Source: a virus
Length of the DNA stretch: 34,884 bases
Reading direction: 5' to 3' (one strand)
Virus record (IMG/VR): IMGVR_UViG_3300038825_000757
Span: 1-34,884 of that record
Position numbers and translations under genes: made by a program. This document shows, piece by piece, positions 294 through 32,729 of this stretch. The notes under the pieces were generated by a model. The model worked only from the letters and a program-made list of their open reading frames with translations, was not told the origin of the DNA and did no database searches. How positions within the stretch are numbered: the stretch's first letter is position 1; each line of letters starts with the position of its first letter.

Positions 294-671
294 TCAACCA
301 AGGTCAATAGATACACGGATGTCACCTGCCACCTGCACTTGAGAACGATCAATAGGTTTATACCCTGCACGATCTAGCAAATCCTTACTGGCTTCCAACT
401 GGACATACTCAGACTTAGCACTTGTTGCCAACCTTCTCACTGTTCCTGCTGCCAATGTAGCACTCAATCCAAACTCTTCATTCATCCTCTGCATCAAGTA
501 CTGTTGCACATGAGGCAACTTCATTGTCTTGCAAGCAGTCACTCTTCCAGACTCGCCCGAACTGTATCCTGCAATCTCAGCAGCTTCCTTAATGGTGCAT
601 CCTCTTGCTACGATGGTGTCAACAAGTGCAGTCTGTTTATCAGTCAGCTTCTTAGTTGAAATATCATTCAT
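294..671 (-). CDS. Terminase small subunit (putative)
   Basis: 125 residues from ATG 671, chosen because GGAAGG lies about 10 bases upstream; a longer frame to 716 would run through a G-rich tract. The N-terminal half (about residues 8-55) reads LTDKQTALVDTIVARG, then AAEIAGYSS, and an HVQQYL segment, the helix-turn-helix pattern of terminase small subunits that bind the packaging site. The C-terminal part (EYVQLEASKDLLDRAGY, then a short beta tail) also fits that family. The small subunit recognises phage DNA and hands it to the large subunit (31209-32729), here separated from it by eleven tiny genes. It is the first gene leftward of the divergent control region. The assignment rests on motif and context; another HTH DNA-binding protein is the alternative. 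Confidence 0.7.
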   Translation of the reverse strand: MNDISTKKLTDKQTALVDTIVARGCTIKEAAEIAGYSSGESGRVTACKTMKLPHVQQYLMQRMNEEFGLSATLAAGTVRRLATSAKSEYVQLEASKDLLDRAGYKPIDRSQVQVAGDIRVSIDLG

Positions 672-689
672 TGATTGATCCTTCCGTTG

Positions 690-714
690 CCCCCCCTCTC
701 CCTCTCTCCCCCCC
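690..714 (-). promoter_or_regulatory. G-rich tract in the leader of the small terminase gene
   Basis: On the minus strand the runs are G7, G3 and G7 separated by AGAGA and AGA. The longer runs can each supply two G-triplets, so a four-stranded G-quadruplex could form in DNA or in the late mRNA leader, just upstream of the ribosome binding site of the gene starting at 671. Structure formation is inferred. Confidence 0.4.
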
Positions 715-747
715 ATCTAAGCCTTATCCCAAGCATCTGTGTCAATA

Positions 748-784
748 GTAACGTAACGTCACCTTGCATTTAACGTGGCGTCAC
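748..784. promoter_or_regulatory. Two operator-like half-conserved palindromes
   Basis: GTAACGTAACGTCAC at 748-762 differs by one base from the perfect palindrome at 3566-3580. A weaker relative (TTAACGTGGCGTCAC, 11 of 15) occupies 770-784. The two start 22 bp apart, about two helical turns, as expected for cooperative binding of a dimeric regulator. They sit upstream of the small terminase gene, where a late promoter would be. Confidence 0.5.
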
Positions 785-860
785 ACCTTGCCAAATGTAT
801 TGACGCACTGTTTCAAAATGATTGTTCCAATCATGTAACTCCGTTGGCCTATGCGGGGCA

Positions 861-903
861 CAAGCTGTTCACAGCTTGACCAAGATGACCTTTAAAAAGG
901 TCA
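861..903. promoter_or_regulatory. Tandem 18-bp perfect inverted repeats (8-2-8)
   Basis: 861-878 is CAAGCTGT, TC, ACAGCTTG; 886-903 is TGACCTTT, AA, AAAGGTCA. Both have perfect 8-bp arms around a 2-bp spacer and their starts are 25 bp apart. No T-run follows either, so they look like protein-binding operators rather than terminators. They lie in the middle of the divergent control region. Confidence 0.55.
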
Positions 904-974
904 ACCAAACTAACTCTCGGTTCATTCCTCACTGGTAGCCGCACCCGCGCAGATGAAAGCTCTTCACCTCTGCA

Positions 975-993
975 CTTTTGCTTTGGGCAAAAG
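975..993. repeat. Inverted repeat (7-bp arms)
   Basis: CTTTTGC at 975-981 and GCAAAAG at 987-993 form a 7-bp stem with a 5-base loop inside the divergent control region. Role unknown. Confidence 0.4.
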
Positions 994-1449
994 CTGCTTG
1001 AGGCTTGTGCTTTCTTTACTGCGCTATGATCGGCACGAAACCAGATTAAATGCTATTGCAGTTTAGTGGCATGTGCTTGCGCCCATGCTGTACAATCTTG
1101 GGGCCCCATCCCCTTTCTGAGCCTCACTCTACGCATCTCCACTCCGACTCGCTCGACGTGGGACTATTAAACGCCCTAAGTCACCGCATGTTGATACTTA
1201 TTGGAAGGCTCGCTTCGATTCCGATTGCTTAAAATTGATTGCTTTCGCTCGTTCTGCTTTGTTTGTGCGATAAATACGCCGACCATGCACATTCGCTGAC
1301 GCAAACGTGCAAGGCTCTATGTATTTTGCACAAACGGCATCACTAGCGTCACACACACACACAGATGCGGGCTTATACCCCCTGTAGGCTTCAACCCATT
1401 GAAAAGTCAAAGGGCAGACTTTTATTTGCGCATACGCGCTAATCAAAAA

Positions 1450-1531
1450 AAGTCTAGCTGAACCGCGAAGGGCGGCTTTGACTTACGGAAGGGATGCCGC
1501 ACCGCCTAGGGGCGGCTTGGCGATCCCTTCC
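1450..1531 (+). ncRNA. Two adjacent strong hairpins in the early leader
   Basis: Hairpin 1: AAGTC (1450-1454) pairs with GACTT (1480-1484), with an inner CCGC/GCGG stem (1463-1466 with 1472-1475). Hairpin 2: GGAAGGGAT (1487-1495) pairs with ATCCCTTCC (1523-1531), GCC (1496-1498) with GGC (1519-1521) and CCGCC (1502-1506) with GGCGG (1511-1515), loop TAGG. Hairpin 2 thus has about 17 base pairs in 45 bases. Both are 75 to 160 bases upstream of the first early gene (1608). No clean T-run follows, so a leader or RNA-processing structure is as likely as a terminator. Confidence 0.55.
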
Positions 1532-1607
1532 TTTCAAGCTGTTCAAGCAAGAACAACGGTATAGCCCATACTGTGTGGGTGTGCTTTTAAACTAAAGGAG
1601 TATTAAA

Positions 1608-2081
1608 ATGGCACAGACTAAAACAAACGTCAGATACAGACCGTACACGATAGATCAGGAAGGGATGTTCGCTTACTACTATCATCAACGCAACTGGATA
1701 CCTGCGCGGATGTTCCACGAATTTCCTCAATGGGGTCAGGCATACAACGCCTATTGGCAAGAGAAAGAAGGCATCAAGCCCGACCCAGATACAATGCCAA
1801 GGGACTACCTAGTATGGCCTGATGGTTCAGTAATGCTAAAGGACGAGTATTGCGAAGTAAGGGATGCGTATCTGGGTCAGGATTATAAACAAGCAAATGC
1901 TGCTGAGCTAAACCCACTTCAGAGAGATGAGGTTGAGGCAAGTGTAGAGGTTATTTTGGAATACTATTATGACCGCTGTTGGTTTCCGAAAGACTTAGCA
2001 GAACTGCACCCTCATCTGGCTAAGCGATACTCCGCATATTACGACTGGAGGATTCAAGACGCAACGGATAACCTCTCATGA
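1608..2081 (+). CDS. Hypothetical protein with internal duplication
   Basis: 157 residues from ATG 1608 with AAAGGAG just upstream. First gene of the early block. It is rich in aromatic residues and appears built from two copies of a module of about 33 residues: near residues 20-53 (YYYHQRNWIPARMF, then a QAYNAYW segment) and near residues 114-147 (EYYYDRCWFPKDL, then a KRYSAYYDW segment). The shared pattern is YYY, four residues, W-x-P, then Y-x-AY about 12 to 14 residues further on. No enzyme motif, signal peptide or membrane segment is visible. Early position suggests a host take-over or regulatory role, but I do not recognise the family. Confidence 0.75.
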   Translation: MAQTKTNVRYRPYTIDQEGMFAYYYHQRNWIPARMFHEFPQWGQAYNAYWQEKEGIKPDPDTMPRDYLVWPDGSVMLKDEYCEVRDAYLGQDYKQANAAELNPLQRDEVEASVEVILEYYYDRCWFPKDLAELHPHLAKRYSAYYDWRIQDATDNLS

Positions 2082-2094
2082 TCGTGAGAGCAAA

Positions 2095-2120
2095 GGTAGC
2101 GCGACTAATACCGCGCTGCC
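2095..2120 (+). ncRNA. Intergenic hairpin with TAATACCGCGCTG motif, copy 1
   Basis: GGTAGCGCG (2095-2103) pairs with CGCGCTGCC (2112-2120), nine pairs including one G-U, around an 8-base loop. It starts 14 bases after the stop of the preceding gene. The 13-mer TAATACCGCGCTG is shared with the hairpin at 3083-3108, which also follows an early gene stop. No T-run follows, so an mRNA-stabilising or RNase III-type processing hairpin is more likely than a terminator. Confidence 0.5.
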
Positions 2121-2189
2121 TACCCTTCAAGGTCTTACCAATTCGGATAGGCCTTGATACCACAACATATTGTAAGATTTACTTCTGCC

Positions 2190-2261
2190 GAGCGGAAATC
2201 GACAGAGAGTAAAGGGCGCGGCTGACGCCGACCCTTGACTCTCAGTCGAAGGTTTCCGCTC
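2190..2261 (+). ncRNA. 72-nt nearly fully paired hairpin
   Basis: Successive stems: GAGCGGAAA (2190-2198) with TTTCCGCTC (2253-2261); TCGAC (2199-2203) with GTCGA (2245-2249); GAGAGT (2205-2210) with ACTCTC (2238-2243); AAGGG (2212-2216) with CCCTT (2232-2236); CGGC (2219-2222) with GCCG (2227-2230) around a TGAC loop. That is 29 pairs with only single mismatches and one 3-base bulge. It lies in the 231-bp gap between two early genes and ends 51 bases before the next ATG (2313). It could be a small structured RNA, a processing site or a single-strand initiation hairpin for replication. Confidence 0.6.
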
Positions 2262-2312
2262 TGGTGGGAGTTACTATCAAATAAACTTGTCATTCAAAAA
2301 TGGAGAAATAAA

Positions 2313-3074
2313 ATGACTGTACTAAACGATCTAGAATTTGTGAACAAGAAGTACGAAGCCGCAAAAGTAGGTGAGGGTTGTACTTTAATTGAAGCGTACT
2401 GCGCAATTGCGTCAGAGTTTTATGACCCTGCCGAGCGGTACGACCCCACCGAGGGCAAGCATGTGCTTGTAAATACTCAACGCTTTGCGCAGCTTCAAAT
2501 GCTACAAAAGATTGGCAATCACCTATACGCCAAGCTTCATAATCCTCAGACCAACGTGGATAAGAACAAGCGCGTATGGTACAAGGGATTGCTTCATCAG
2601 CTTGAGGCCCAACAGCAAGAGGAGCGCGAAAAGAGCGAACCATACACAGGGCAAGATGGCGTAATGCGAGAGCTACCCGAGCAGGTTATGCAAGAGCTAG
2701 AAACTCTGTGGACACGCATCGACGATACCAAGCAAGAAATATTGCAGGTAGAAACTAACCTCAACAACCTTATGGATGTACTAGAGGTTGCGACTGGCGA
2801 AGCGTTCAAGCCTTATGAATACTGGAAGTTGCCACAGTATAACGCTCAACAGGACATCAGGCCCGAAGCTACCACCGACAGAGAGAACAGCTTCATGGCT
2901 AGAGCAGCCGCAAGAGGCATCAAGGTCAGCCCTCGCACAGAGGTTCAAACCGATGCAGTAGGTACTGAGGTCGGCAGTGGCAACACATCTCACCATGAGA
3001 TTGACGCCATGTTTAAGAAAGAAGAAACCAAAGCGGCTAATAAGAAAGGTGGTCGCAAGAAGAAGAGCGCATAA
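2313..3074 (+). CDS. Hypothetical early protein, coiled coil with basic tail
   Basis: 253 residues from ATG 2313, chosen because GGAG lies 7 bases upstream; the frame is open further upstream only through the hairpin at 2190-2261. The middle (about residues 95-155) is rich in Q, E and K with heptad-like spacing (LHQLEAQQQEEREK and later IDDTKQEILQVETNL), suggesting a coiled coil. The C-terminus is strongly basic (KKGGRKKKSA), suggesting nucleic acid contact. No catalytic motif is seen. It is the second early gene, flanked by structured intergenic regions on both sides. Function unknown. Confidence 0.75.
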   Translation: MTVLNDLEFVNKKYEAAKVGEGCTLIEAYCAIASEFYDPAERYDPTEGKHVLVNTQRFAQLQMLQKIGNHLYAKLHNPQTNVDKNKRVWYKGLLHQLEAQQQEEREKSEPYTGQDGVMRELPEQVMQELETLWTRIDDTKQEILQVETNLNNLMDVLEVATGEAFKPYEYWKLPQYNAQQDIRPEATTDRENSFMARAAARGIKVSPRTEVQTDAVGTEVGSGNTSHHEIDAMFKKEETKAANKKGGRKKKSA

Positions 3075-3082
3075 CTCTTCAA

Positions 3083-3108
3083 GGGGCAGCGTAATACCGC
3101 GCTGTCCC
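3083..3108 (+). ncRNA. Intergenic hairpin with TAATACCGCGCTG motif, copy 2
   Basis: GGGGCAGCG (3083-3091) pairs with CGCTGTCCC (3100-3108), nine pairs with one G-U and an 8-base loop. It begins 8 bases after a stop codon. Size, loop length and the 13-mer TAATACCGCGCTG match the hairpin at 2095-2120. Confidence 0.5.
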
Positions 3109-3308
3109 AACCCACTCACCAAAGGATTTGCCAATGTTTCACTTCATCATTACCCTTTTCTATCAACTGCTACGTCTTGCAAAGCAAACGTCACCTAAAG
3201 CAGACAGGAAAGCCGTAATGTGTTTTGCATTATTCCGATCAAAGATCGGGCAAAACTGGAGTGCTTGCCACTGGCTAATACCTGTGTTCCATATCAACCG
3301 CCCAAGTC

Positions 3309-3361
3309 AAAGGGGTTTCACCCCTTTAACAATTCCCCACAAGGAGACTGCGTACTCCTTG
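3309..3361 (+). ncRNA. Two consecutive perfect hairpins
   Basis: AAAGGGGT (3309-3316) pairs with ACCCCTTT (3320-3327) over a 3-base loop. CAAGGAG (3340-3346) pairs with CTCCTTG (3355-3361) over an 8-base loop. A third, smaller one (CCGATC, AAA, GATCGG) is at 3235-3249. The second stem buries an AAGGAG that would otherwise resemble a ribosome binding site, but no start codon follows it closely. Confidence 0.5.
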
Positions 3362-3565
3362 ACCTGTTGCCTAGCGTGACATAGCAACCGTTGCGCATGG
3401 GGCGGCTTGGGGCCACAATCAGGACTACTTACTACGGTGAGATATTTGCAATGCAGATTTGTGTATCAACTTCAACTGTATCAACTCTGTCAACAAGCAA
3501 AAGCGTCCGAGTAATTAGTATACAACCAAAAGTAAAGTGTCCGGTTATTTATATAAGGAGCCAAA

Positions 3566-3580
3566 GTGACGTAACGTCAC
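3566..3580. promoter_or_regulatory. Perfect 15-bp palindrome, probable operator
   Basis: GTGACGTAACGTCAC has two 7-bp arms around one central base. A one-mismatch copy is at 748-762 and a weaker one at 770-784 in the divergent control region. It lies 69 bases before the gene starting at 3649, close to where a promoter for the DUF932 gene group would be. A dimeric HTH regulator, perhaps one of those coded at 6014-6419, is a possible partner. Confidence 0.55.
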
Positions 3581-3602
3581 AATAGATTATTAATTATTAA
3601 CA

Positions 3603-3651
3603 CTGCATACTAGCAGTTGTTAACCCACTGTCCAGAAAGGAGAACATCATG
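3603..3651 (+). promoter_or_regulatory. Conserved 49-nt leader, copy A
   Basis: From CTGC at 3603 to the ATG at 3649-3651. Ungapped, 36 of 49 bases match 7318-7366. The shared parts are an inverted repeat CTGCATA..GCAG, an ACTGT block and AAGGAGAA-ATC before the start codon. Each copy leads one early gene group, so they probably share promoter or operator elements. Confidence 0.55.
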
Positions 3652-4086
3652 GACAACAAAACTAAACAAACCGCAATGCTCACACGCATGAAGATCGTTA
3701 GGAATTTTGTAAATGATCGACAAAATTACTTAAACAGTCTTGAGTATTATTCAGCAGAAATCGAGATTGTATTTGGTGACAGCTACGATGAAAGCCTTAT
3801 TGCTAGAGCTAAAGTCTACAGCAAGCCTTTTGCCGATGAAGACTCAAATTATAAAACGTTTGGAATAAAAGCAGAAACCTTTGAAGATGATGTGCAAGAG
3901 ATTGATGACCACATCAAGTCTTTGCCCAATCTGAAGTCAGCAAAGCAAGCCATCTTAATGAGGCAGCTTGAAGCAGTAAGAGAAAGTTCAGACGATCTTG
4001 GCTTAAACTTCTCAGCAGCAATCACAGAGATCATGGAATCTCTATCCTCTAACATCTTAGAAGCACCGAAAGGAGATGTCGCATGA
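3649..4086 (+). CDS. Hypothetical acidic protein
   Basis: 145 residues from ATG 3649 with AAAGGAG 6 bases upstream. Acidic and mostly helical by composition; no recognised domain, signal peptide or membrane segment. It overlaps the next gene by ATGA (4083-4086), so the two are probably translated together. It opens the gene group led by the conserved leader 3603-3651. Function unknown. Confidence 0.75.
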   Translation: MDNKTKQTAMLTRMKIVRNFVNDRQNYLNSLEYYSAEIEIVFGDSYDESLIARAKVYSKPFADEDSNYKTFGIKAETFEDDVQEIDDHIKSLPNLKSAKQAILMRQLEAVRESSDDLGLNFSAAITEIMESLSSNILEAPKGDVA

Positions 4087-4922
4087 CATTCATGAAACCT
4101 ATCAACGATTGGAACTTCCCAATCAAGATGATGCCAACGCCTAACGCCGTAACTGGTGAGCCTGTACCCAATTCGGTACAGGTGATCCGCACTGACACTG
4201 ATGAAGTGATGGGCGTTCACGGCAGTAAATACAAACCTGTCAGCCATGACCTAGCTGTTGAATCTATACTTGATGCAGCTAAAACAGCTAACATTAGTTC
4301 AGACTTCAAAACTAAGATCGAAGTCTATGAAGGTGGTCGCAAGCTAAGAGCTAGGATCATATGGCCTGATGTAACTATCGAACCAGAGGTCGGTGACTAT
4401 GTGCGATACGAAGCGCTAGCAACTAATAGTCTTGATGGCAGTTGGTCGTTTACTCAATGGAGTCAAGGCAATCGGTTATGGTGTAAAAACGGTTGCACCA
4501 CTGCTGACATCTCAGCTTATTCTAAATACAAACACACACGATCCATCAACGTAGAAGGATCGGCTATCAAGATTGCCAATGGGATGTCTGCTTTCAAGGA
4601 GCAGAAAGGCATATGGCAATCTTACATGGGTGTGAAAGTCAGCAATGACCAAGCAGAAAGCTTCTTCAAAAAGCACCTCTGCAAAATGCACACTCGCCAA
4701 GCCAACATCACCAAGACCAACGAGCGCCAACTAGAAAACCTGCTCGGTCTATGGGGCGACGAGCGATCACATCTCGGCCCGAACAAGTGGGCTTTATACA
4801 ATACCCTAACGCATTGGGCGACACACACTCAGGATATGCGCAGCCCTCATACAGCGCGTCATAATCGTGAGGCAATCATCACCAGTGCAATGCGTTCTAG
4901 CGCATGGAAAGAGCTAGCATGA
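4083..4922 (+). CDS. DUF932 family protein
   Basis: 279 residues from ATG 4083 with GGAG 9 bases upstream. The opening segment after the FP start (VIRTDTDEVMGVHGSKYKPV), the middle NSLDGSWSFTQW and the LWCKNGCTTAD segment match the DUF932 (phage/plasmid-like, TIGR03299) family found on many phages and plasmids. The biochemical role is not established; a tie to replication or anti-restriction has been suggested by context only. It overlaps genes on both sides by ATGA and so belongs to one translational unit with 3649-4086 and 4919-5104. The family call is fairly secure, the function is not. Confidence 0.8.
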   Translation: MTFMKPINDWNFPIKMMPTPNAVTGEPVPNSVQVIRTDTDEVMGVHGSKYKPVSHDLAVESILDAAKTANISSDFKTKIEVYEGGRKLRARIIWPDVTIEPEVGDYVRYEALATNSLDGSWSFTQWSQGNRLWCKNGCTTADISAYSKYKHTRSINVEGSAIKIANGMSAFKEQKGIWQSYMGVKVSNDQAESFFKKHLCKMHTRQANITKTNERQLENLLGLWGDERSHLGPNKWALYNTLTHWATHTQDMRSPHTARHNREAIITSAMRSSAWKELA

Positions 4923-5104
4923 AACAGCAATGGATTATGGTGATGTCAAAAGCACCTTTCCAAAAAGAGTTTGGAATGGACAAAGGTTTTAGCATTACTG
5001 AATTGGGTGCCAAAAAAGCAATGGAGAAAGCTCAATCCTATATGGAAGAACAGTCCAGTATGTTCAGGGATTTTGAATTCTTTTTACAAGGAGGAGAATG
5101 GTAA
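4919..5104 (+). CDS. Small hypothetical protein
   Basis: 61 residues starting at ATG 4919 (MKQQWIMVMSKAPF), overlapping the DUF932 stop by ATGA, with GGAAAGAG upstream. It ends in EFFLQGGEW. The last codons carry the GGAGGAG that serves the next gene. Helical and charged; no family recognised. Confidence 0.65.
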   Translation: MKQQWIMVMSKAPFQKEFGMDKGFSITELGAKKAMEKAQSYMEEQSSMFRDFEFFLQGGEW

Positions 5105-5105
5105 C

Positions 5106-5309
5106 TTGAAAGCAACACGACAGCATTACAGATACATAGCGGACAACTTTGCGCCGCTTGTATCATCACCCATCGTAATCGAACAGATTGCTGATGATCT
5201 TGAGAAACTAAACAAAAAGTTTAATCGTAAAAAGTTTCTCGCAAGAGCCATCGCTAAATGGGAGCAGAAAAATCTGCCACCAATTATTGATGATGAAATC
5301 CCATACTAA
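5106..5309 (+). CDS. Small hypothetical protein with SSB-like C-terminal tip
   Basis: 67 residues from TTG 5106. The frame has no ATG or GTG at the right place, but GGAGGAG at 5091-5097 sits 8 bases before the TTG, which decides the start. The protein reads TRQHYRYIADNFAPLV, then a basic helix (LNKKFNRKKFLARAIAKWE), and ends DDEIPY. That acidic, hydrophobic-ended tip resembles the DDIPF tail of single-strand binding proteins, and the SSB-like protein at 8694-9092 ends in DDIPF. A role near SSB partners is speculation. Confidence 0.6.
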   Translation: MKATRQHYRYIADNFAPLVSSPIVIEQIADDLEKLNKKFNRKKFLARAIAKWEQKNLPPIIDDEIPY

Positions 5310-5323
5310 AAGGAGACAGCAAA

Positions 5324-5533
5324 ATGGGAATTAAAATTATCCGTGGACTAAAAATGCCGCAAGCAAGAGGCAGCAATATAAGATCAACTATTATCTTAAT
5401 GGAAATTGGTGACGCTGTTAAAGCAAACTCACCAACTCAAGCAACTTACATTAGAAAAGTAATGCTTGGCCTTGGATTTAAATGCTCTCAACGAAAAATA
5501 GGTAATGACATTTACCTTTGGAGGACAGCATAA
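5324..5533 (+). CDS. Small basic hypothetical protein
   Basis: 69 residues from ATG 5324 with AAAGGAG 9 bases upstream. Starts MGIKIIRGLKMPQARG. The part about residues 24-66 (MEIGDAVKANSPTQATYIRK, then LGLGFKCSQRKIGNDIYLW) looks like a compact helix-turn-helix with a strand pair, as in small DNA-binding regulators, but no named family is certain. It overlaps the next gene by TAATG. Confidence 0.6.
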   Translation: MGIKIIRGLKMPQARGSNIRSTIILMEIGDAVKANSPTQATYIRKVMLGLGFKCSQRKIGNDIYLWRTA

Positions 5534-5826
5534 TGAGAGCAGAAATGATTGCCGTTGTTCGCAACGATTGTATCCATGATCCAGACGCTGCATCAGCAGC
5601 ACAATATTATCGCATGGGTCAATTATGCTATGAGTGTACGTTCTTAAACCCTCATGCTGTTCTTAAGCTACCAAGCTTGGACTTCCCTTTGTCAAAGCAA
5701 GATGCCTCAGATTATATCTCTGAACTAATGGAGATAAAAAATTCTTTGCGCATTGAGTGGATCAAGAACAACCCAAGCGCAGTGCCGCCTTGGATGCGAG
5801 AAGGAGAGATCAGTGACCAAGACTGA
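5533..5826 (+). CDS. Hypothetical protein
   Basis: 97 residues from ATG 5533 (MRAEMIAVVRNDC). TAATG overlap with the previous stop and GGAGG 10 bases upstream choose this start over a TTG five codons earlier. Mixed helix and strand composition, no motif recognised. Its end carries the AAGGAG used by the next gene. Confidence 0.65.
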   Translation: MRAEMIAVVRNDCIHDPDAASAAQYYRMGQLCYECTFLNPHAVLKLPSLDFPLSKQDASDYISELMEIKNSLRIEWIKNNPSAVPPWMREGEISDQD

Positions 5827-5989
5827 TATTGAACAAGCCATTGAACGCGAGAGAAAAGATTACAATGAACTTCTCGCAAAGTATGGCTCTGGTGTGAGGC
5901 CAAGTTGGGTATCGACCGAACTAGCCCACATTGGCATAGCCATACAAGGCTATAAACTTCAGCTAAAAGAAATGGAGGTTGACTTCTAG
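5813..5989 (+). CDS. Small hypothetical protein, helical
   Basis: 58 residues from GTG 5813 (VTKTDIEQAIERERKDYNEL), with AAGGAGAG 5 to 12 bases upstream. The upstream part of the frame overlaps the previous gene and lacks a ribosome binding site. Highly charged N-terminal helix, then YGSGVRPSW and a second helix. Function unknown. Confidence 0.6.
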   Translation: MTKTDIEQAIERERKDYNELLAKYGSGVRPSWVSTELAHIGIAIQGYKLQLKEMEVDF

Positions 5990-6013
5990 CTGCGCGTATG
6001 CAGTAAGTGCGGT

Positions 6014-6298
6014 ATGAAATCGTACTTGCAAACCATAACAGATTGTTCAACGGAGTATAAGATTCCGTTGAGCAAAGCTTTCCAAAGGGCGCAAATCCCA
6101 ACATCAACATACTATCGGACAGTAAATGGAGCGACAGAGTTAAGGTACGAGACAGCCGCAAAGGTGTTCAATGCCATCGAAGAGCTTCACTCGATTCAAC
6201 AAGCCCGTGAGTATACCCAAAGATTACGAGAAGCTAATCAAGATGTTAATCGAAGCTCGGTTCGAGCGAGGTTTAAGCCAAGAGTCGCTAGCCCATAG
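6014..6298 (+). CDS. HTH regulator, Cro/CI-like
   Basis: 94 residues from ATG 6014; the ribosome binding site is weak. Residues about 17-50 (IPLSKAFQRAQIPTSTYYRT, then an ELRYETAAKVFNAIEEL helix) have the layout of a five-helix Cro/CI type DNA-binding domain with recognition helix TSTYYRT. The tail is basic. It overlaps the next HTH gene out of frame by 128 bases, unusually long, so one of the two starts or ends may be different. Two regulators side by side in the middle of the early block suggest control of the operators at 748-903 and 3566-3580. Confidence 0.65.
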   Translation: MKSYLQTITDCSTEYKIPLSKAFQRAQIPTSTYYRTVNGATELRYETAAKVFNAIEELHSIQQAREYTQRLREANQDVNRSSVRARFKPRVASP

Positions 6299-6419
6299 CA
6301 TCGGGTGTACGTCATCACTGATCCACAAGTGGGAATCTCACAAGAGAATCCCATCTGGTTTTATGCTGATGTGTTGGTTAGACGCATTAGAATATGACAT
6401 CAAAGTCCAAAAGAGGTAG
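6171..6419 (+). CDS. XRE-family HTH regulator
   Basis: 82 residues from ATG 6171, with AAGGTG 6 bases upstream. Residues 25-58 (LIEARFERGLSQESLAHSIG, then CTSSLIHKWESHKRIPS) match the classic HTH_3/XRE motif, followed by a helix LMCWLDAL. Shorter starts at GTG 6207 (VSIPKDYEKL) or ATG 6243 would reduce the overlap with the previous gene but have no better ribosome binding site. Likely a DNA-binding transcription regulator of the phage. Confidence 0.75.
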   Translation: MPSKSFTRFNKPVSIPKDYEKLIKMLIEARFERGLSQESLAHSIGCTSSLIHKWESHKRIPSGFMLMCWLDALEYDIKVQKR

Positions 6420-6711
6420 TGCAATAACTTGCATTGCCTGTGAAACAGTAACGAATTGGTTCGTTGCTATTTGTAAAAACAACAGTGCAGCCACCAATGA
6501 AAAGCATTGGTACGTTTGCCTTAATTGTTACGAGGAAGATAAATGGCAAACCGTAACAAGAACAAAGGAACTTACCACGAAAAGTGGTTCGTCAATTGGC
6601 TCAACGAAATCCAAGCGCCGATCAAAGCGAAGAGGCAACCCCTCTCAGGCAGCTTGGGAGGCGAGTATAGCGGAGACATCAAACTCGAAGTCTTCGGACG
6701 AGAAATGGTAG
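6394..6711 (+). CDS. Zinc-ribbon protein overlapping the resolvase gene
   Basis: 105 residues from ATG 6394. Residues 13-45 carry two cysteine pairs, CIAC (13, 16) and CLNC (42, 45), a compact zinc ribbon. From residue 51 on, the frame runs for 169 bases through the start of the resolvase gene (6543) in another frame, giving a low-complexity, serine/lysine-rich tail (TKSKRRSKRRG). The finger is complete before the overlap, so the tail may be an overprinted extension, or a frameshift may hide an earlier stop. The start also overlaps the preceding regulator by 26 bases. Confidence 0.6.
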   Translation: MTSKSKRGSAITCIACETVTNWFVAICKNNSAATNEKHWYVCLNCYEEDKWQTVTRTKELTTKSGSSIGSTKSKRRSKRRGNPSQAAWEASIAETSNSKSSDEKW

Positions 6712-6902
6712 GAGAGGTAAAGTATAGGGACAAGTCCAATTTCCCTAGCCCCTTCTCAGTATTAGATAGGCGAGACATTGCCTTCTATAAAAGACGGACA
6801 GGCAGTCCGCAAACGCTAGTCATTATGTCTGGCGATGAGTTCAAACAGCTAATGGAGAAAGCTAATGGAAACGCAAAACAAAATGATAAAGGCTCACCTT
6901 AA
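6543..6902 (+). CDS. Holliday junction resolvase-like PDDEXK nuclease
   Basis: 119 residues from ATG 6543 with GAGGAAG just upstream. The order of motifs is that of Hjc-type resolvases and related phage endonucleases: KGTYHEKWF with E13, a QPLSGS stretch with small residues, SGDI with D45, and GEVKYR with E58 and K60. These are the acidic and lysine residues that bind metal in PDDEXK nucleases. It would cut branched recombination or replication intermediates before packaging and fits with the exonuclease and annealing protein that follow. A generic PDDEXK endonuclease is the alternative. Confidence 0.8.
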   Translation: MANRNKNKGTYHEKWFVNWLNEIQAPIKAKRQPLSGSLGGEYSGDIKLEVFGREMVGEVKYRDKSNFPSPFSVLDRRDIAFYKRRTGSPQTLVIMSGDEFKQLMEKANGNAKQNDKGSP

Positions 6903-7062
6903 AAAAGGTTTGAGATTAACTTCACTTGAAGCGCTAGAATTATTTGGGTGCTTTAGATTGTCGGCAAGAATATCTGAATTAAAAACATCAGGCTTTAATG
7001 TCGAGAAAGTAATGATCGACTTGCCAAATGGCAAACGCATAGCAGAGTATTATATGCCATGA
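6865..7062 (+). CDS. Small winged-helix protein (HTH_39-like)
   Basis: 65 residues from ATG 6865 with ATGGAGAAAG upstream, overlapping the resolvase end by 38 bases. KAHLKKGLRLTSLEALELFG, then RLSARISELKTSGF and a final wing ending AEYYMP match the small helix-turn-helix domain (HTH_39 type) common next to phage recombination genes. Probably DNA-binding; target unknown. ATGA overlap with the next gene. Confidence 0.7.
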   Translation: METQNKMIKAHLKKGLRLTSLEALELFGCFRLSARISELKTSGFNVEKVMIDLPNGKRIAEYYMP

Positions 7063-7316
7063 AGAAACCAACTAACATCGGCAAGTATGTCGAAAGCAAT
7101 GTGTGGGATGCACACGTTAGCAAAGCTACAAGCTCACCTCATTACGCTAAAGAATACAAACGTACAAATTATGTTCTCGACGAATACGAGGTGATGGCTC
7201 GACGCATCAAAAACGGAGAGCCAATCAGCGAGAACTATCTCAAGGGCAAGCAGAAAGAAAGGCTGCTAGAATTTACAGACTTAACTGAGGCTGACTTCAA
7301 AAAATATCTTGCGTAG
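7059..7316 (+). CDS. Hypothetical protein
   Basis: 85 residues from ATG 7059, in ATGA overlap with the winged-helix gene. Charged, with an EYEVMARRIKNGEPIS segment; no known family. It closes the gene group that began at 3649: a new leader (7318-7366) starts directly after its stop. Confidence 0.65.
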   Translation: MKKPTNIGKYVESNVWDAHVSKATSSPHYAKEYKRTNYVLDEYEVMARRIKNGEPISENYLKGKQKERLLEFTDLTEADFKKYLA

Positions 7317-7317
7317 T

Positions 7318-7366
7318 CTGCATATATGCAGTAGTCTAACTACTGTACCAGAAGGAGAAAATCATG
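7318..7366 (+). promoter_or_regulatory. Conserved 49-nt leader, copy B, with two palindromes
   Basis: Holds the 14-bp palindrome CTGCATATATGCAG (7318-7331) and an overlapping inverted repeat CAGTAGT, CTA, ACTACTG (7329-7345), then AAGGAGAAAATC and ATG. Ungapped it shares 36 of 49 bases with 3603-3651. It stands directly before the exonuclease gene, so it probably holds the operator and possibly the promoter of the recombination genes. Confidence 0.55.
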
Positions 7367-8146
7367 AAACGAACTGGCTTTATAGGCGGGTCTGACTGTG
7401 TAAAAATTATGCAGGGTGACTGGCTTGAGCTATGGCAGATCAAAACAGGTCGAATAAACCCACCTGATTTGTCTAAAAATTTAGCTGTGCAAATGGGCAT
7501 ACACACTGAGGACTTCAATCTTGAATGGTTCGAGAATGAATACGACTGTGTGCTGTCAGATCATCAGCGTGAATACAGACATCCCATTGGCATTGTTCCT
7601 GCAAGGGGTACAATAGATGCCATGTTTGGTGACGCTGTTGTTGAAGCAAAGCACACTAACTCATTCAACAAAATGGATGATATAATCCAACGCTATATGC
7701 CACAGATACAATTGTATTGTCGGCTAGCAGAATCACCAGACGCATACTTGTCTGTAATTTTTGGCAACAGCAAGTGGGAGTCAACAGTTGTCTCATTCGA
7801 TAACTCGTATTTCAATTCTATGTGGGCAGTGGTGTCAGATTTCTGGGGTTACGTTGTACGCAACGAAGAGCCGCCTAGTGATGTCGAAACTGGACACATA
7901 TCAACCGACTCCGTTCAGGTGGACAACATGGTCGTACGAGACGCCTCGACAAGCAACGAGTTCGTCAGCACCGCAGCCACATACGTTCAAGGGCTTGAGC
8001 AAGACAAAGTATTCCAGAACGCAAAGAAATCTCTCAAAGAAATGGTCGCCCCAAATGAGAGAGAAGTTTACTGTGATTTCCTCACAGTCAAACGAGACAA
8101 ACGAGGGGCATTAAGAATCAGTAAAACAAATGGAGAAGTGAAATGA
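7364..8146 (+). CDS. YqaJ/lambda-type recombination exonuclease
   Basis: 260 residues from ATG 7364 with AAGGAG 7 bases upstream. GFIGGSD (residues 5-11), LELWQIKTG, GIHTED with E49, TIDAM with D85, VEAKHTN with E94 and K96, and MPQIQLYC with Q114 and Q116 are the ordered motifs of the YqaJ-like viral recombinase nucleases. These digest one strand of linear duplex DNA 5' to 3' to expose a single strand for annealing. The next gene, overlapping by ATGA, is the annealing protein partner. Length is close to the family's usual 200 to 300 residues. High confidence in family; the rest of the C-terminal 100 residues is less conserved to my eye. Confidence 0.88.
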   Translation: MKRTGFIGGSDCVKIMQGDWLELWQIKTGRINPPDLSKNLAVQMGIHTEDFNLEWFENEYDCVLSDHQREYRHPIGIVPARGTIDAMFGDAVVEAKHTNSFNKMDDIIQRYMPQIQLYCRLAESPDAYLSVIFGNSKWESTVVSFDNSYFNSMWAVVSDFWGYVVRNEEPPSDVETGHISTDSVQVDNMVVRDASTSNEFVSTAATYVQGLEQDKVFQNAKKSLKEMVAPNEREVYCDFLTVKRDKRGALRISKTNGEVK

Positions 8147-8586
8147 CTATGGAAATATGGAACAGGCTTTCAAAGTCTGACCCTAAGTATCTCAAGAAGG
8201 TCAGCTTTGGGGCGCGTAGCTTCACAGCTATTGATCCACAATATCAGGTCAGAATGATGACCGAAGAGTTTGGCCCTGTCGGTCACGGATGGGGTTGGCA
8301 CAGTGAAACACAGATCGTCAATGTCAGCAACGGAGATAGCGCAGTACTTGCTCATGTTTCTGTCTGGTATAGCAGTCCATCAAATGTATTCGGGCCGTTC
8401 ACTGGCTGTCGTAAGTTCTTTGATTCAACCAAAGGACGGATGGCAGAGGATGCCCCCAAGATGGCTGTCACTGATGGTCTGACTAAAGCTCTGTCGCACG
8501 TTGGCTGTAATGCTGACGTATTCTTAGGAGAAATGGATGGCAATAAGTATGCCGCAGACAGTGGTTCATCCAGTAGTGGGTGGTAA
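8143..8586 (+). CDS. Single-strand annealing protein, Rad52-like
   Basis: 147 residues from ATG 8143 (ATG 8149 is the alternative), overlapping the exonuclease by ATGA. The segment SFTAIDPQYQVRMMTEEFGP then HGWGWHSE is the N-terminal signature I associate with small phage annealing proteins of the Rad52/Sak type; the later KMAVTDGLTKALSHVGCNADVF helix (about residues 108-128) is also typical of these and of related RecT/Erf-like folds. It would coat and anneal the single strands made by the exonuclease. The exact superfamily is uncertain, the role is well supported by the gene pair. Confidence 0.78.
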   Translation: MTMEIWNRLSKSDPKYLKKVSFGARSFTAIDPQYQVRMMTEEFGPVGHGWGWHSETQIVNVSNGDSAVLAHVSVWYSSPSNVFGPFTGCRKFFDSTKGRMAEDAPKMAVTDGLTKALSHVGCNADVFLGEMDGNKYAADSGSSSSGW

Positions 8587-8590
8587 TCTT

Positions 8591-8667
8591 GTGGAGAGGG
8601 GCGTTCTCCTGCCTCTGGACTAACCGTACAAGGGGCGGCGCGGTAGCTCTCCACTAAGAGCCGCCCC
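8591..8667 (+). promoter_or_regulatory. Mutually exclusive hairpins in the SSB-like gene leader
   Basis: GTGGAGAG (8591-8598) can pair with CTCTCCAC (8647-8654). Alternatively GGAGA (8593-8597) pairs with TCTCC (8605-8609), while GGGGCGG (8632-8638) pairs with CCGCCCC (8661-8667) and CTCT (8647-8650) with AGAG (8657-8660). CTCT and GGAGA are each used in two pairings, so the forms compete. This switch-like leader sits 27 bases before the ATG of the SSB-like gene; control by that protein is possible but unproven. Confidence 0.45.
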
Positions 8668-8693
8668 ATCATTACTAACTAGGAGCCAAAAGC

Positions 8694-9092
8694 ATGGCAG
8701 AATATGACGACACAAACCGAGGCGCAGCCTTCACACCTTTCCCCACGCAGAAGATGATCCTGCAAGGTAAGGTAAACATCGAAGGCAACGACAATAAAGT
8801 TGTCTTGGTTTCAGACGAAACGCGAGATGGCAGAAAAATTGTCGAAGTGTTTCAGAAAGTCGGCGTTCTATTTGAGAACGACAAGAAAGGCAATGAAGCA
8901 GCACCAGATTATTCTGGCCCAATCAAACAAGCAATTGATTCTCCACTTGAGAAGCGCATTGCAGGTTGGCGCAGAATGAAAGACGGCAAGCCTTATATGT
9001 CTTTCAATGTCAGTGATAAGCAAGGTGGCACTGAGGAAAGAAAGATTCCTGACCCATCAAAAGCCTTGCCAGAAGATGACATTCCGTTCTAG
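8694..9092 (+). CDS. SSB-like protein (putative)
   Basis: 132 residues from ATG 8694, with AGGAGCCAAAAGC upstream. It begins with strands (MILQGKVNIEGNDNKVVLV, then GRKIVEVFQKVGVLF) consistent with an OB-fold-like core and ends PEDDIPF, the acidic, phenylalanine-ended tip by which single-strand binding proteins recruit partners. It directly follows the exonuclease/annealing pair. The core does not show a clear canonical SSB motif to me, so the call rests on tail and context. It may protect single strands during recombination. Confidence 0.6.
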   Translation: MAEYDDTNRGAAFTPFPTQKMILQGKVNIEGNDNKVVLVSDETRDGRKIVEVFQKVGVLFENDKKGNEAAPDYSGPIKQAIDSPLEKRIAGWRRMKDGKPYMSFNVSDKQGGTEERKIPDPSKALPEDDIPF

Positions 9093-9138
9093 AATATAAA
9101 AATATACCCAGTGAGTTTGCCTCAATACTCGCAGACTT

Positions 9139-9179
9139 GGGCGCTTTGGGAATGACCCACCCAAGCGCCCATTTTTTTT
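9139..9179 (+). terminator. Strong intrinsic terminator
   Basis: GGGCGCTT (9139-9146) pairs with AAGCGCCC (9163-9170); GGG/CCC pairs further extend the stem with one T bulge. Eight T residues follow at 9172-9179. It lies 47 bases after the SSB-like gene stop and just before the ribosome binding site of the next gene, so it closes the recombination unit or attenuates the genes downstream. Confidence 0.85.
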
Positions 9180-9192
9180 CAAAGGAGACATC

Positions 9193-9381
9193 ATGGAAAC
9201 GTGGCAAGAAATAAAAGCAAGGCACAAGCGAGAGAAGATCGAACTGGTTCAAAGCTTTGCTGCTCATTACACAATGAAAGACGCAGCTAAGATATTAAAG
9301 TGTGACGAGCCTGTGCTTCGACGCTTTGCGCATCACAGCAATATAACATTCTTGAAAGCAAAGTGGCCTGATAAAGTGTGA
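9193..9381 (+). CDS. Small HTH protein
   Basis: 62 residues from ATG 9193 with AAAGGAG 6 bases upstream. AAHYTMKDAAKILKCDEPVL then RRFAHH (about residues 23-48) is a helix-turn-helix of the homeodomain-like kind. Likely DNA-binding. It is immediately downstream of a strong terminator, so it is expressed by readthrough, antitermination or a local promoter, and its stop codon lies inside the hairpin 9377-9454. Confidence 0.65.
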   Translation: METWQEIKARHKREKIELVQSFAAHYTMKDAAKILKCDEPVLRRFAHHSNITFLKAKWPDKV

Positions 9382-9454
9382 AGCGGCGGTTTGCTTTTCC
9401 GATAACAGGCAGTCGAACGCTAGCAAAAGTGGGTTTCTGAGGTGCCGCCTCACA
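9377..9454 (+). ncRNA. Long-range hairpin between two HTH genes
   Basis: TGTGAAGCGG (9377-9386) pairs with CCGCCTCACA (9445-9454), nine of ten positions. Inside, TTTGC (9390-9394) can pair with GCAAA (9423-9427). The stem begins at the stop codon of the preceding gene and the structure fills most of the 109-bp gap before the next GTG start (9491). A small structured RNA or a leader controlling the following gene is possible. Confidence 0.4.
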
Positions 9455-9490
9455 CAAATCCAGTAAACAAAACAAAGGAGAACAAGTCAA

Positions 9491-9784
9491 GTGACACCAT
9501 TAGAAAAAATGAAGGCCTATGCCAAAATCGAGAACGCAAGGATGCTCTCTCGCATAGGCGGCAGCAACGCTATAGCAGGGATGAAAGGCAGGGACGGAGG
9601 TTACAAAGGAGGTAGGCCCAACAAAAAGCAAAAGCTCTCTGAGAAAGCAGAAAAAATATTACTCTGCATGAAGTCCGATATGAATGTCCGCGCCATAGCG
9701 CAAGTCGTCGGCACTTCGCATCAAGCAGTCAGCCAAATTATTAGTAGATACAATCTAAAGGAGTTGGCTAATGAACAGTCTTAG
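9491..9784 (+). CDS. HTH DNA-binding protein
   Basis: 97 residues from GTG 9491 with AAGGAG about 12 bases upstream. The first half is basic and glycine-rich (GGYKGGRPNKKQKLSEKAEK). The C-terminal part, VRAIAQVVGTSHQAVSQIIS (residues 66-85), is a helix-turn-helix of the resolvase/sigma-4 kind. Probably a transcription regulator of the early block. It overlaps the next gene by 14 bases, and its last codons carry that gene's AAAGGAG. Confidence 0.7.
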   Translation: MTPLEKMKAYAKIENARMLSRIGGSNAIAGMKGRDGGYKGGRPNKKQKLSEKAEKILLCMKSDMNVRAIAQVVGTSHQAVSQIISRYNLKELANEQS

Positions 9785-12515: not shown

Positions 12516-13372
12516 GTATATTGCTCCACTCTTTCAGATCCCGCATTACACACAACCATTTTCGTCATGGTCGGATTAAAGGCAAAGCCCTGTTGATTAC
12601 CAGAAATTATGCTCGCAGTATTGCCTGACGTAAATGTTGCGGTAGTAATGTCGTAAGCTGTAGAAAGGTCAAACTGTTTAATCTGGTCTGATGTATTATC
12701 AAGAATATAAAGGCGTGTTCCATCCGAGTTCCACTGAAGGTCGGTGGGTGTACCTATGCCTACCGAAAGTGTTGCAGTGTGACTTCCTGTCGAAACATCA
12801 AAAGCTGTTGATAACGTAACTTCATCTACACTATCCCCACTTTGACCGATCATCCAGAGAGTTGTCCCATCGTCAGAAATCCTTAGACCGTTTGTGCTTG
12901 TCTCCCAATCATCGGTGTCCAAACGCTCACTGTCGCCCTGATAGACTGCCTCGGAGACATCATATGCATCAGCCGCAGCAATGGTATATTCCTCAATAAA
13001 ATCACTACCATCATTAATATATAATTTCTGTCCATTATTGCCAAAACATATGCCTCTGGGATTAAGGCCGTCTGTAGCTAAAGTGCGGCTTGCACCCAAA
13101 TATGTGACTGTGCTGCTCAGGTCATAAGCTGTTGAAACTGAATATGTATGCACTTTATCCGTAGTTCTTCCCACAATCATCAACTCAGACCCGTTGTCGT
13201 TCCACAGAACGCCAGAAACCAAAGTCTCACCTGCCCCTCCCACTGCGTCGAGTTGTAGATAAACACTGTCATACGACACAGCGCTAAGGTCTATTGAGTA
13301 GACAGTTTCACCACCGCCGCCGCCAGAGCTAGTAACACCCCCTGCACCCATAAGTTTTTTACCAAGGAACAT
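12506..13372 (-). CDS. Beta-propeller tail-associated protein
   Basis: 288 residues from ATG 13372, which overlaps the tail fibre stop as TAATG and has GGGGATGGAAG upstream; a start at 13423 would overlap the fibre gene by 52 bases. After a glycine-rich linker (GGVTSSGGGGGETVYS) come about five repeats of 30 to 50 residues, near 53-88, 105-140, 162-194, 210-244 and 261-286. Each has a WN-DG-L-I core followed by a strand and the motif STAYD-S (STAYDLSS, STAFDVST, STAYDITT). This is a propeller-type fold. Placed after the fibre, it may form a fibre tip or receptor-binding accessory. Confidence 0.7.
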   Translation of the reverse strand: MFLGKKLMGAGGVTSSGGGGGETVYSIDLSAVSYDSVYLQLDAVGGAGETLVSGVLWNDNGSELMIVGRTTDKVHTYSVSTAYDLSSTVTYLGASRTLATDGLNPRGICFGNNGQKLYINDGSDFIEEYTIAAADAYDVSEAVYQGDSERLDTDDWETSTNGLRISDDGTTLWMIGQSGDSVDEVTLSTAFDVSTGSHTATLSVGIGTPTDLQWNSDGTRLYILDNTSDQIKQFDLSTAYDITTATFTSGNTASIISGNQQGFAFNPTMTKMVVCNAGSERVEQYTCG

Positions 13373-31208: not shown

Positions 31209-32729
31209 CTACATTCTTGCCCAAAACCCCTGCTTCTTAGGGCGTGGCTGCTTAGAAAAGACATCAAAGCTGCGTTTTGCAACAGATACCTTTGCAGGTT
31301 TTTGTGTATTCATAAGCGCTCGGCCCTCACCTGCACCCAAGAAAAGGTACTGTGCTGCATCGTGAACGTGGCTAAACATATTTTTGTCTGGCTTATCTGC
31401 ATACCTTTCGCCAGAAACCTCCATGCGTTTGTACGCATAGCCGCCCTCAAAGCCTTTGATTAGCTGTGGGCATCTGCGATCAATTAATAAAGCAGGTTTC
31501 CCTTCGACCATCTTAGTCAGTTGGGAGGAGACTGACTCAAGCCGAAGGTCAACGGAGTTGGAGGGTGCGGGAAAAGCCCTCAAACCTGCTCCGCGCAAGA
31601 TGTGAAAAGGAGTAGATTCATCAGTCTGTGCGCGGAAATCACCTGCGGGATCGCCATAGATTATCACCTCTGACGCTGCCGCGAATCTTATAGCTAGCTC
31701 GTTTCTAAGAACTTCGGCAAAACGCACGATGCCCATGTCTACCGCCACAATTTCGGATTGAATAAACCATCGCCCTCGAACCTTTTGTCCAAGCACTGCC
31801 GCAGGGGTCAAGCCAAAGTCCACGCCAACATAGACTGGGGAATTTGCGGCTACTGGTATTTCTTCTTTTGCAACGTGTACTTCTGCTGCAAACATCGGAT
31901 AGACAGGTTTCCCATCTTGAATGTGGCCCAAGCGGTTCATCACATACACATCTATCCATGATTTAGTCTTACCCCTTATCAAGTTTGGATAATAACTCTT
32001 CAACATATTCTTAGTGTTTTCGGCCTTGGGATTTGGCTCGTAATCTTCTATCTCGCCTTCCTCACCCTTCTTCTCAACCATACCACAGGGCTGCGTATAG
32101 AAAGACCAGTTGTCTGGTTTAACCAACATCTTAGCTTGCTCGCGCGGTATATGATCTGGGATTGGAACTTCACCTGCCATAATCGGCCACCAGTGATCTT
32201 CTTCGGGAGCATTGGTGTCAGCAATAACGCCAGTCCAAGTAGGCCCACCATCACGCATAGAAGGAAAGCGGCCCACACGCATAGTGCAAGCGTCAATAAT
32301 GCTCTTGGCAATTTCTCTAGCTTCATTAATCCAAACGCCAGTCAGTTCTAAAGATAGCAATTTCTTCACATCTTCGGGGCGGTCTAAAGCTAAGAAGATA
32401 ACCTCAAGGTCAATGTCGCCCTTCTTAATGTGATGCGTATATGGCACTGACCAAGTAAACTTGCCCCAATCTGATTCTGGAAACCAGTCAAGCCATGTCT
32501 TGATGGTGGTGGTTCTAAGTTGAGGATTGGTATTACGAATGATTGCCCATCGGCTTTTGCGTATTCCATCTGGCCCCTTGCCTTGCTCTAAGGCGCGGCG
32601 AAACACTTCTACACAACAGCCAACAGACTTGCCAGAGCCGACTGGCCCTCTTATGCCACGAAAGAATGTATCGTCTTTCATAAACCCTTTAAGGACTTCT
32701 CCATCGGGCTTGTATTTGAAGTCTATCAT
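31209..32729 (-). CDS. terL: Terminase large subunit
   Basis: 506 residues from ATG 32729, in ATGA overlap with the previous gene. Walker A is GPVGSGKS at 28-35, Walker B-like GVWINEARE at 131-139 with catalytic Glu 136. The C-terminal nuclease shows VGVDFG (Asp 304), IIYGDPAG (Asp 360) and VHDAAQYLF (Asp 457), the metal-binding acidic residues of the RNase H-like fold. It pumps DNA into the head and cuts it. It is the most reliable anchor gene for placing this phage. Confidence 0.95.
   Translation of the reverse strand: MIDFKYKPDGEVLKGFMKDDTFFRGIRGPVGSGKSVGCCVEVFRRALEQGKGPDGIRKSRWAIIRNTNPQLRTTTIKTWLDWFPESDWGKFTWSVPYTHHIKKGDIDLEVIFLALDRPEDVKKLLSLELTGVWINEAREIAKSIIDACTMRVGRFPSMRDGGPTWTGVIADTNAPEEDHWWPIMAGEVPIPDHIPREQAKMLVKPDNWSFYTQPCGMVEKKGEEGEIEDYEPNPKAENTKNMLKSYYPNLIRGKTKSWIDVYVMNRLGHIQDGKPVYPMFAAEVHVAKEEIPVAANSPVYVGVDFGLTPAAVLGQKVRGRWFIQSEIVAVDMGIVRFAEVLRNELAIRFAAASEVIIYGDPAGDFRAQTDESTPFHILRGAGLRAFPAPSNSVDLRLESVSSQLTKMVEGKPALLIDRRCPQLIKGFEGGYAYKRMEVSGERYADKPDKNMFSHVHDAAQYLFLGAGEGRALMNTQKPAKVSVAKRSFDVFSKQPRPKKQGFWARM

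Follow-up and report, generated by a model that had tools for sequence, protein, structure and literature searches.

A long imperfect hairpin lies between two plus-strand genes of the virus contig IMGVR_UViG_3300038825_000757 (34,884 nt; the whole record is referred to here as the window). Comparison with related contigs indicates that it is a real, conserved and covarying working element without a match in Rfam; its function is something that we infer. Across lineages the element is conserved through paired changes, and it has a constant core, a tip that is usually T-shaped and a nearly constant distance to the ATG of the gene that follows. At a probability of about one half, the best explanation is that it acts in cis as a hairpin in the leader or intergenic part of an early mRNA, where it is probably an RNase III-type processing or stabilising site. 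A leader or intergenic element of the message is the simplest reading because the start-codon spacing holds across proteins that are 25-30% identical. The features concerned are as follows, with the basis of each in brackets.

1608..2081, plus strand: upstream gene p1608, an orphan of 157 aa (ORF list, homology searches)
2093..2119, plus strand: smaller hairpin GGTAGCGCG..CGCGCTGCC between p1608 and p2313 (fold)
2127..2157, plus strand: smaller hairpin TCAAGGTC..GGCCTTGA, directly upstream of the main hairpin (fold)
2181..2271, plus strand: full hairpin, 38 pairs, -56.4 kcal/mol (fold; similar in a second run)
2190..2261, plus strand: hairpin as first reported, 29 pairs, five helices (fold and shuffles)
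2211..2214, plus strand: 5' core, AAAG in the window, CAAG in other lineages (ladder comparison)
2215..2233, plus strand: GC-rich tip, a single mini-hairpin in the window (fold, comparison)
2234..2237, plus strand: 3' core, CTTG, at 75 nt from the start codon (spacing measurement)
2272..2312, plus strand: linker rich in A, containing AAACTT (2283-2288) and the Shine-Dalgarno GGAG (2302-2305); relatives have a similar one (sequence)
2313..3074, plus strand: p2313, an unknown early gene of 253 aa; all its homologues have the leader hairpin (ORF list, alignment queries)
3083..3108, plus strand: hairpin GGGGCAGCG..CGCTGTCCC right after p2313, without a T-run; most relatives have an intrinsic terminator here (fold)

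A sequence-only reading had described a hairpin of 29 pairs in five stems at 2190-2261. Folding reproduced it exactly, and its true extent proved to be longer. On the plus strand this interval folds at -43.6 kcal/mol, its five stacked helices (9+5+6+5+4 pairs) being set apart by a bulge of 3 nt, a pair of 1x1 mismatches and one small asymmetric loop. The claim that such a structure is far beyond chance holds up: the z-score is -6.86, and none of 200 shuffles, or of 1000 in a separate run, was as stable. The minus strand of the same interval folds at -47.5 kcal/mol (z -8.6). Among 1160 scanning windows along the record, 2190-2261 is the top local structure after correction for GC content. Nine extra outer pairs, three of them G-U, lengthen the hairpin to 91 nt (2181-2271). 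No T-run stands beyond 2261 or 2271, or on the minus side of the hairpin. An intrinsic terminator (GC stem plus T-run) was therefore rejected for 2181-2271, as had been argued at the outset. The hairpin is also intergenic, as first described. It occupies the gap between ORFs 1608-2081 and 2313-3074, and no credible gene runs over it: the frames that do are a TTG-initiated upstream extension of the next ORF and, on the minus strand, a mechanical 52-aa ORF. Rfam 15 gave zero matches at the gathering score in the window or in ten relatives, and at a permissive E-value it returned nothing relevant, just a single weak unrelated match.

The terminase of the window is similar to that of Pelagibacter phage EXVC031P Hodr (65% amino acid identity) and, to a lesser degree, to that of Methylophilales phage MEP301. 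Packaging and structural genes, including terS (294-716), are on the minus strand. The plus-strand gene set begins at 1608 and includes DUF932, a YqaJ/RecE-like exonuclease and a protein with ERF-type relatives. Going by gene order and strand alone, the genes around the hairpin are presumably early. With the queries used, neither viral contigs nor cultured phages gave a homologue of p1608, and megablast and tblastn searches of the flanking genes against cultured phages gave no match. The stretch from terS to DUF932 is hypervariable: L004 and L006, relatives with 98-99% terL identity, are without most of window positions 910-3530.

Several other observations concern this region and the record as a whole. 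Between terS and the first plus-strand gene there are three further strong structures (1252-1341, 1404-1484 and 1487-1531), one of which is T-shaped with a GTCAAAG/CTTTGAC stem. A 13-base exact repeat, TAATACCGCGCTG, occurs at 2106-2118 and 3092-3104, within the hairpins that follow ORFs 1608-2081 and 2313-3074. In the cultured relative Hodr (L002), a stable simple hairpin lies between the first two plus-strand genes (approximately 12826-12859). Hodr is more distant, and its hairpin is smaller. The window's terS and terL (31209-32729) are on the same strand near opposite ends of the record, a placement which suggests that the break point of the record falls within the block of late genes, in a genome that is permuted or circular. 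In the scan of early-region proteins (5324-9784), polymerase, helicase and primase were not recognised; the only genes recognised were of recombination type (the RecE/YqaJ-like exonuclease and the protein with ERF-type relatives). Replication of the phage may rely on the host.

The gene behind the hairpin, p2313, has no Pfam or PHROG match above cut-off and nothing significant in PDB. A fold search with a structure model of moderate confidence produced three weak matches to unnamed phage proteins and none in PDB. Single-sequence searches of contigs with p2313 or p1608 also gave no matches, and the relatives of p2313 were found through terL neighbours and then by alignment query. Homologues of p2313 (27-31% identity) are encoded by three terL relatives, and in all three a long hairpin comes immediately before the gene. 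Alignment queries with p2313 returned 30 and 44 contigs in largely overlapping sets, and the gene belongs to a group of uncultured podovirus-like phages. GTDB genomes yielded no homologue and therefore no host or prophage is assigned. Wherever the sequence upstream of a p2313 homologue is long enough, a long imperfect hairpin precedes the gene, and this holds across about a dozen virus lineages. The control for this association took the 150 nt upstream of each gene and scored the best 90-nt interval by its energy below GC expectation. By this measure all 21 distinct p2313 leaders have an excess below -15 kcal/mol. Even the milder value of -10 kcal/mol is passed by few control leaders (4 of 23 for DUF932, 0 of 15 for YqaJ and 0 of 5 for ERF) and by 3% of random positions, 0% of which go below -15.

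The leaders share an anatomy. The CAAG/CTTG core is constant across lineages (AAAG/CTTG is the variant in the window), a match that was in part demanded by the anchor search. Around it, mismatches in the stems recur at intervals of a few pairs. In most other lineages the tip, as read from the sequences, is a three-way junction, which gives the T-shape, with two mini-hairpins that are often CGC-NNN-GCG. In the window and in most lineages 75 nt separate the 3' core from the ATG (74-82 nt over all lineages), despite changes in the intervening letters; the linkers of relatives are rich in A and carry a word like AAACT(T) and, ahead of the ATG, GGAG. The base of the hairpin is about 40 nt upstream of the ATG, leaving the Shine-Dalgarno free. 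In 11 of the 15 loci examined an intrinsic terminator directly follows the p2313 homologue.

Arm identity across lineages is mostly just 17-57% when arms are compared from the tip outwards. The mean arm duplex is worth -25.6 kcal/mol with the cognate partner versus -14.7 kcal/mol with swapped partners. In ladders anchored on the core (15 positions outside the core, 15 sequences), 73% of cells are paired, a value somewhat favoured by a register that was set by maximising pairing around the core. Slid ladders give 25-36%, and column shuffles and swapped arms 46% each (0 of 1000 reach the observed value in either case). Two-sided changes are present at 14 of the 15 ladder positions. A clean MAFFT-aligned subset is 87% paired and has nine pairs with two-sided changes (0 of 500 shuffles). 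The pair counts were made on these two sets because MAFFT applied to all hairpins displaces the 3' arm in some rows. An ungapped ladder scan was overly strict and missed the window owing to its bulge. The pattern GTCAAGG..CCTTGAC, searched across all viral contigs, is palindromic and matched mostly by chance, and was discarded. Uncompensated breaks of the stem in related phages had been named beforehand by the sequence-only reading as evidence that would count against it; instead, pairing is kept through two-sided changes in about a dozen lineages.

A covariance model (R1) built from seven hairpins, with the window left out, finds 2195-2255 as the best match in the record (24.6 bits on the minus strand and 18.6 on the plus strand; the next match has 10.2). 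It also finds the hairpins of L090, L093, L105, L109 and L138. In other words, the window's hairpin is recovered as a leader hairpin of a p2313 homologue, at the correct place and spacing, by a model that excludes it.

Relatives that do not have p2313 hold another small gene family (q, A7; 79 loci) in the same slot between terS and DUF932. Leaders of this family in closer relatives (L006, L012, L033 and L043) resemble those of p2313 in their genome slot and, often, in a T-shaped rod that, where measured, stands 57-59 nt upstream of the ATG. They differ in the outer stem (GGGCAGAAA) and in a possible alternative hairpin adjoining the Shine-Dalgarno, and they are not uniform. Strong folding was seen in 32 of 49 distinct q-family leaders. 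The family, with its T-shaped or otherwise strongly folded leaders, is present at L006 (1565-1182, minus strand), L012, L033, L043, L014 and L048 and at 79 further loci; the 170-nt leader of L043 folds at -96 kcal/mol. If formed, the putative alternative hairpin next to the Shine-Dalgarno, GCGAGGGTGGTCCTCGC, could be a competitor of pairing with an upstream GCGGCCACC, and the q-family leader may be a switch. Profile comparison of p2313 with the q family gives a weak alignment (76% probability over 50 columns). It seems that the slot, beyond the gene alone, keeps structured leaders.

How might the p2313 leader work? As an RNase III-type site, the hairpin would be transcribed within the p1608-p2313 early message, would act as RNA and, in double-stranded form, would be the target of RNase III of the host or of a comparable enzyme. 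A cut in the mismatched stem would split the p2313 mRNA from the upstream cistron and leave p2313 with a defined leader and a free ribosome-binding site. What is left of the stem would shield the end of the upstream message from decay. Most relatives have a terminator after the gene, which would close the other end, to give a compact one-gene mRNA like those of the T7 early region. Cleavage, transcription and the acting molecule are all steps that we infer.

The T7 RNase III sites (R0.3 to R1.3) are likewise irregular mismatched hairpins in early-gene gaps close upstream of start codons, and in both cases the genes would finish on short mRNAs. What is found here is also an irregular hairpin, lying in the untranslated stretch between two genes that are early by gene order. 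The T7 hairpins ahead of genes 0.3, 0.5, 1.1 and 1.3 share an AAGG/CCUU core, which in three of them reads CAAGG/CCUUU. These cores resemble CAAG/CTTG in the relatives and AAAG/CTTG in the window, a likeness of four pairs only. A CUU/GAA element is common to RNase III signals. Unlike the T7 sites, the stems here are far longer and more stable, the tip is mostly T-shaped and the core is 74-82 nt from the ATG, versus about 29-37 nt at most of the T7 sites. Covariance model R1 run on T7 500-7500 gave no match at the processing sites. The resemblance is, on this analysis, probably a functional likeness, and neither homology nor membership. Three readings had accompanied the first description. The RNase III-type site fits the anatomy best, through intergenic position, near-fixed spacing and T7-like core. 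A free-standing non-coding RNA fits worse than a cis-acting leader, and the link between spacing and start codon makes a single-strand DNA origin less likely.

Perhaps the element instead represents a class of phage RNA that is new: a T-tipped leader that goes with a single unknown gene slot in widespread uncultured marine phages and acts, by a route not known from T7 or lambda-type phages, with the protein of that gene or with RNA polymerase. This idea is tentative. What if the leader is an operator? In this scenario the core and T-tip would serve as the binding site of the p2313 product, or of some other protein of the phage, for translational or transcriptional autoregulation. Gene family and hairpin always co-occur in the loci found, the CAAG/CTTG core is constant and the tip constrained while the remainder turns over, and the start-codon distance is near-fixed. 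However, with the hairpin base about 40 nt 5' of the ATG the Shine-Dalgarno is unobstructed, and no nucleic-acid-binding domain was recognised in p2313 (Pfam, PHROG, PDB). An operator is unlikely.

As for the acting strand, in the stems of 14 relatives A.C on the plus strand (G.U on the minus strand) outnumbers G.U on the plus strand by 27 to 11, in related sequences that are not independent. This excess is the opposite of that expected under selection for plus-strand RNA, which the wobble statistics thus do not indicate as the selected form. The minus strand folds better in many lineages, whereas the window favours the plus strand once the outer stem is counted. With wobble counts and folds that lean minus in relatives, the plus strand as the acting strand, and even RNA as the acting molecule, are putative. 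A mismatch pattern that is strand-neutral but leans minus would suit a hairpin or cruciform in DNA, serving as a replication origin, single-strand initiation site or protein-binding site beside a gene whose product acts on it. T-shaped tips would suit it too, as would the presence of recombination genes in an early region where the scan recognised no polymerase, helicase or primase. However, an ATG spacing kept at 74-82 nt, with a ribosome-binding site in between, would be needless for a DNA function, and this reading is improbable.

Structured RNAs of early operons are also known from HK022, where put RNAs of about 70 nt form two stem-loops and function without a phage protein (PMC9378689). 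They lie downstream of early promoters in two copies per genome (PMC9378689). By analogy, the nascent p2313 leader might alter RNA polymerase, which would then ignore the terminator behind p2313 and continue into the remaining early genes. Like put, it would be a structured RNA of similar length in an early operon, upstream of terminators: most lineages have a strong intrinsic terminator after p2313, with DUF932, YqaJ and ERF genes beyond. The anatomy of put (two adjacent stem-loops past early promoters, two copies) is not what is seen, though. Here a single copy before p2313 forms one long stem with a bipartite, T-shaped tip, linked to a start codon and not a promoter, and the window itself lacks a recognisable terminator after p2313. 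Put-like antitermination is a long shot. Very unlikely indeed is a minus-strand non-coding RNA that stands in front of p2313 fortuitously. The minus strand does fold better in the 72 nt first reported and in most lineages, and G.U is commoner on it, but no T-run or other RNA end is present on the minus side and the spacing is bound to the plus-strand start codon. Chance origin or an ordinary terminator, whose sole point in favour is that the region is rich in hairpins, is refuted, in so far as sequence comparison can do so, by the shuffle results, the covariation and the missing T-run.

The element thus covaries strongly, has no Rfam match and goes with an early gene that is uncharacterised. 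The phage group is well represented in public virus contigs. The constant core and spacing of the element make it directly testable using short transcripts. If it is not an RNase III-type site, it would point to a new RNA-based control of early phage genes. If it is, early mRNA processing like that of T7 would extend to phages without a recognised T7-type RNA polymerase.
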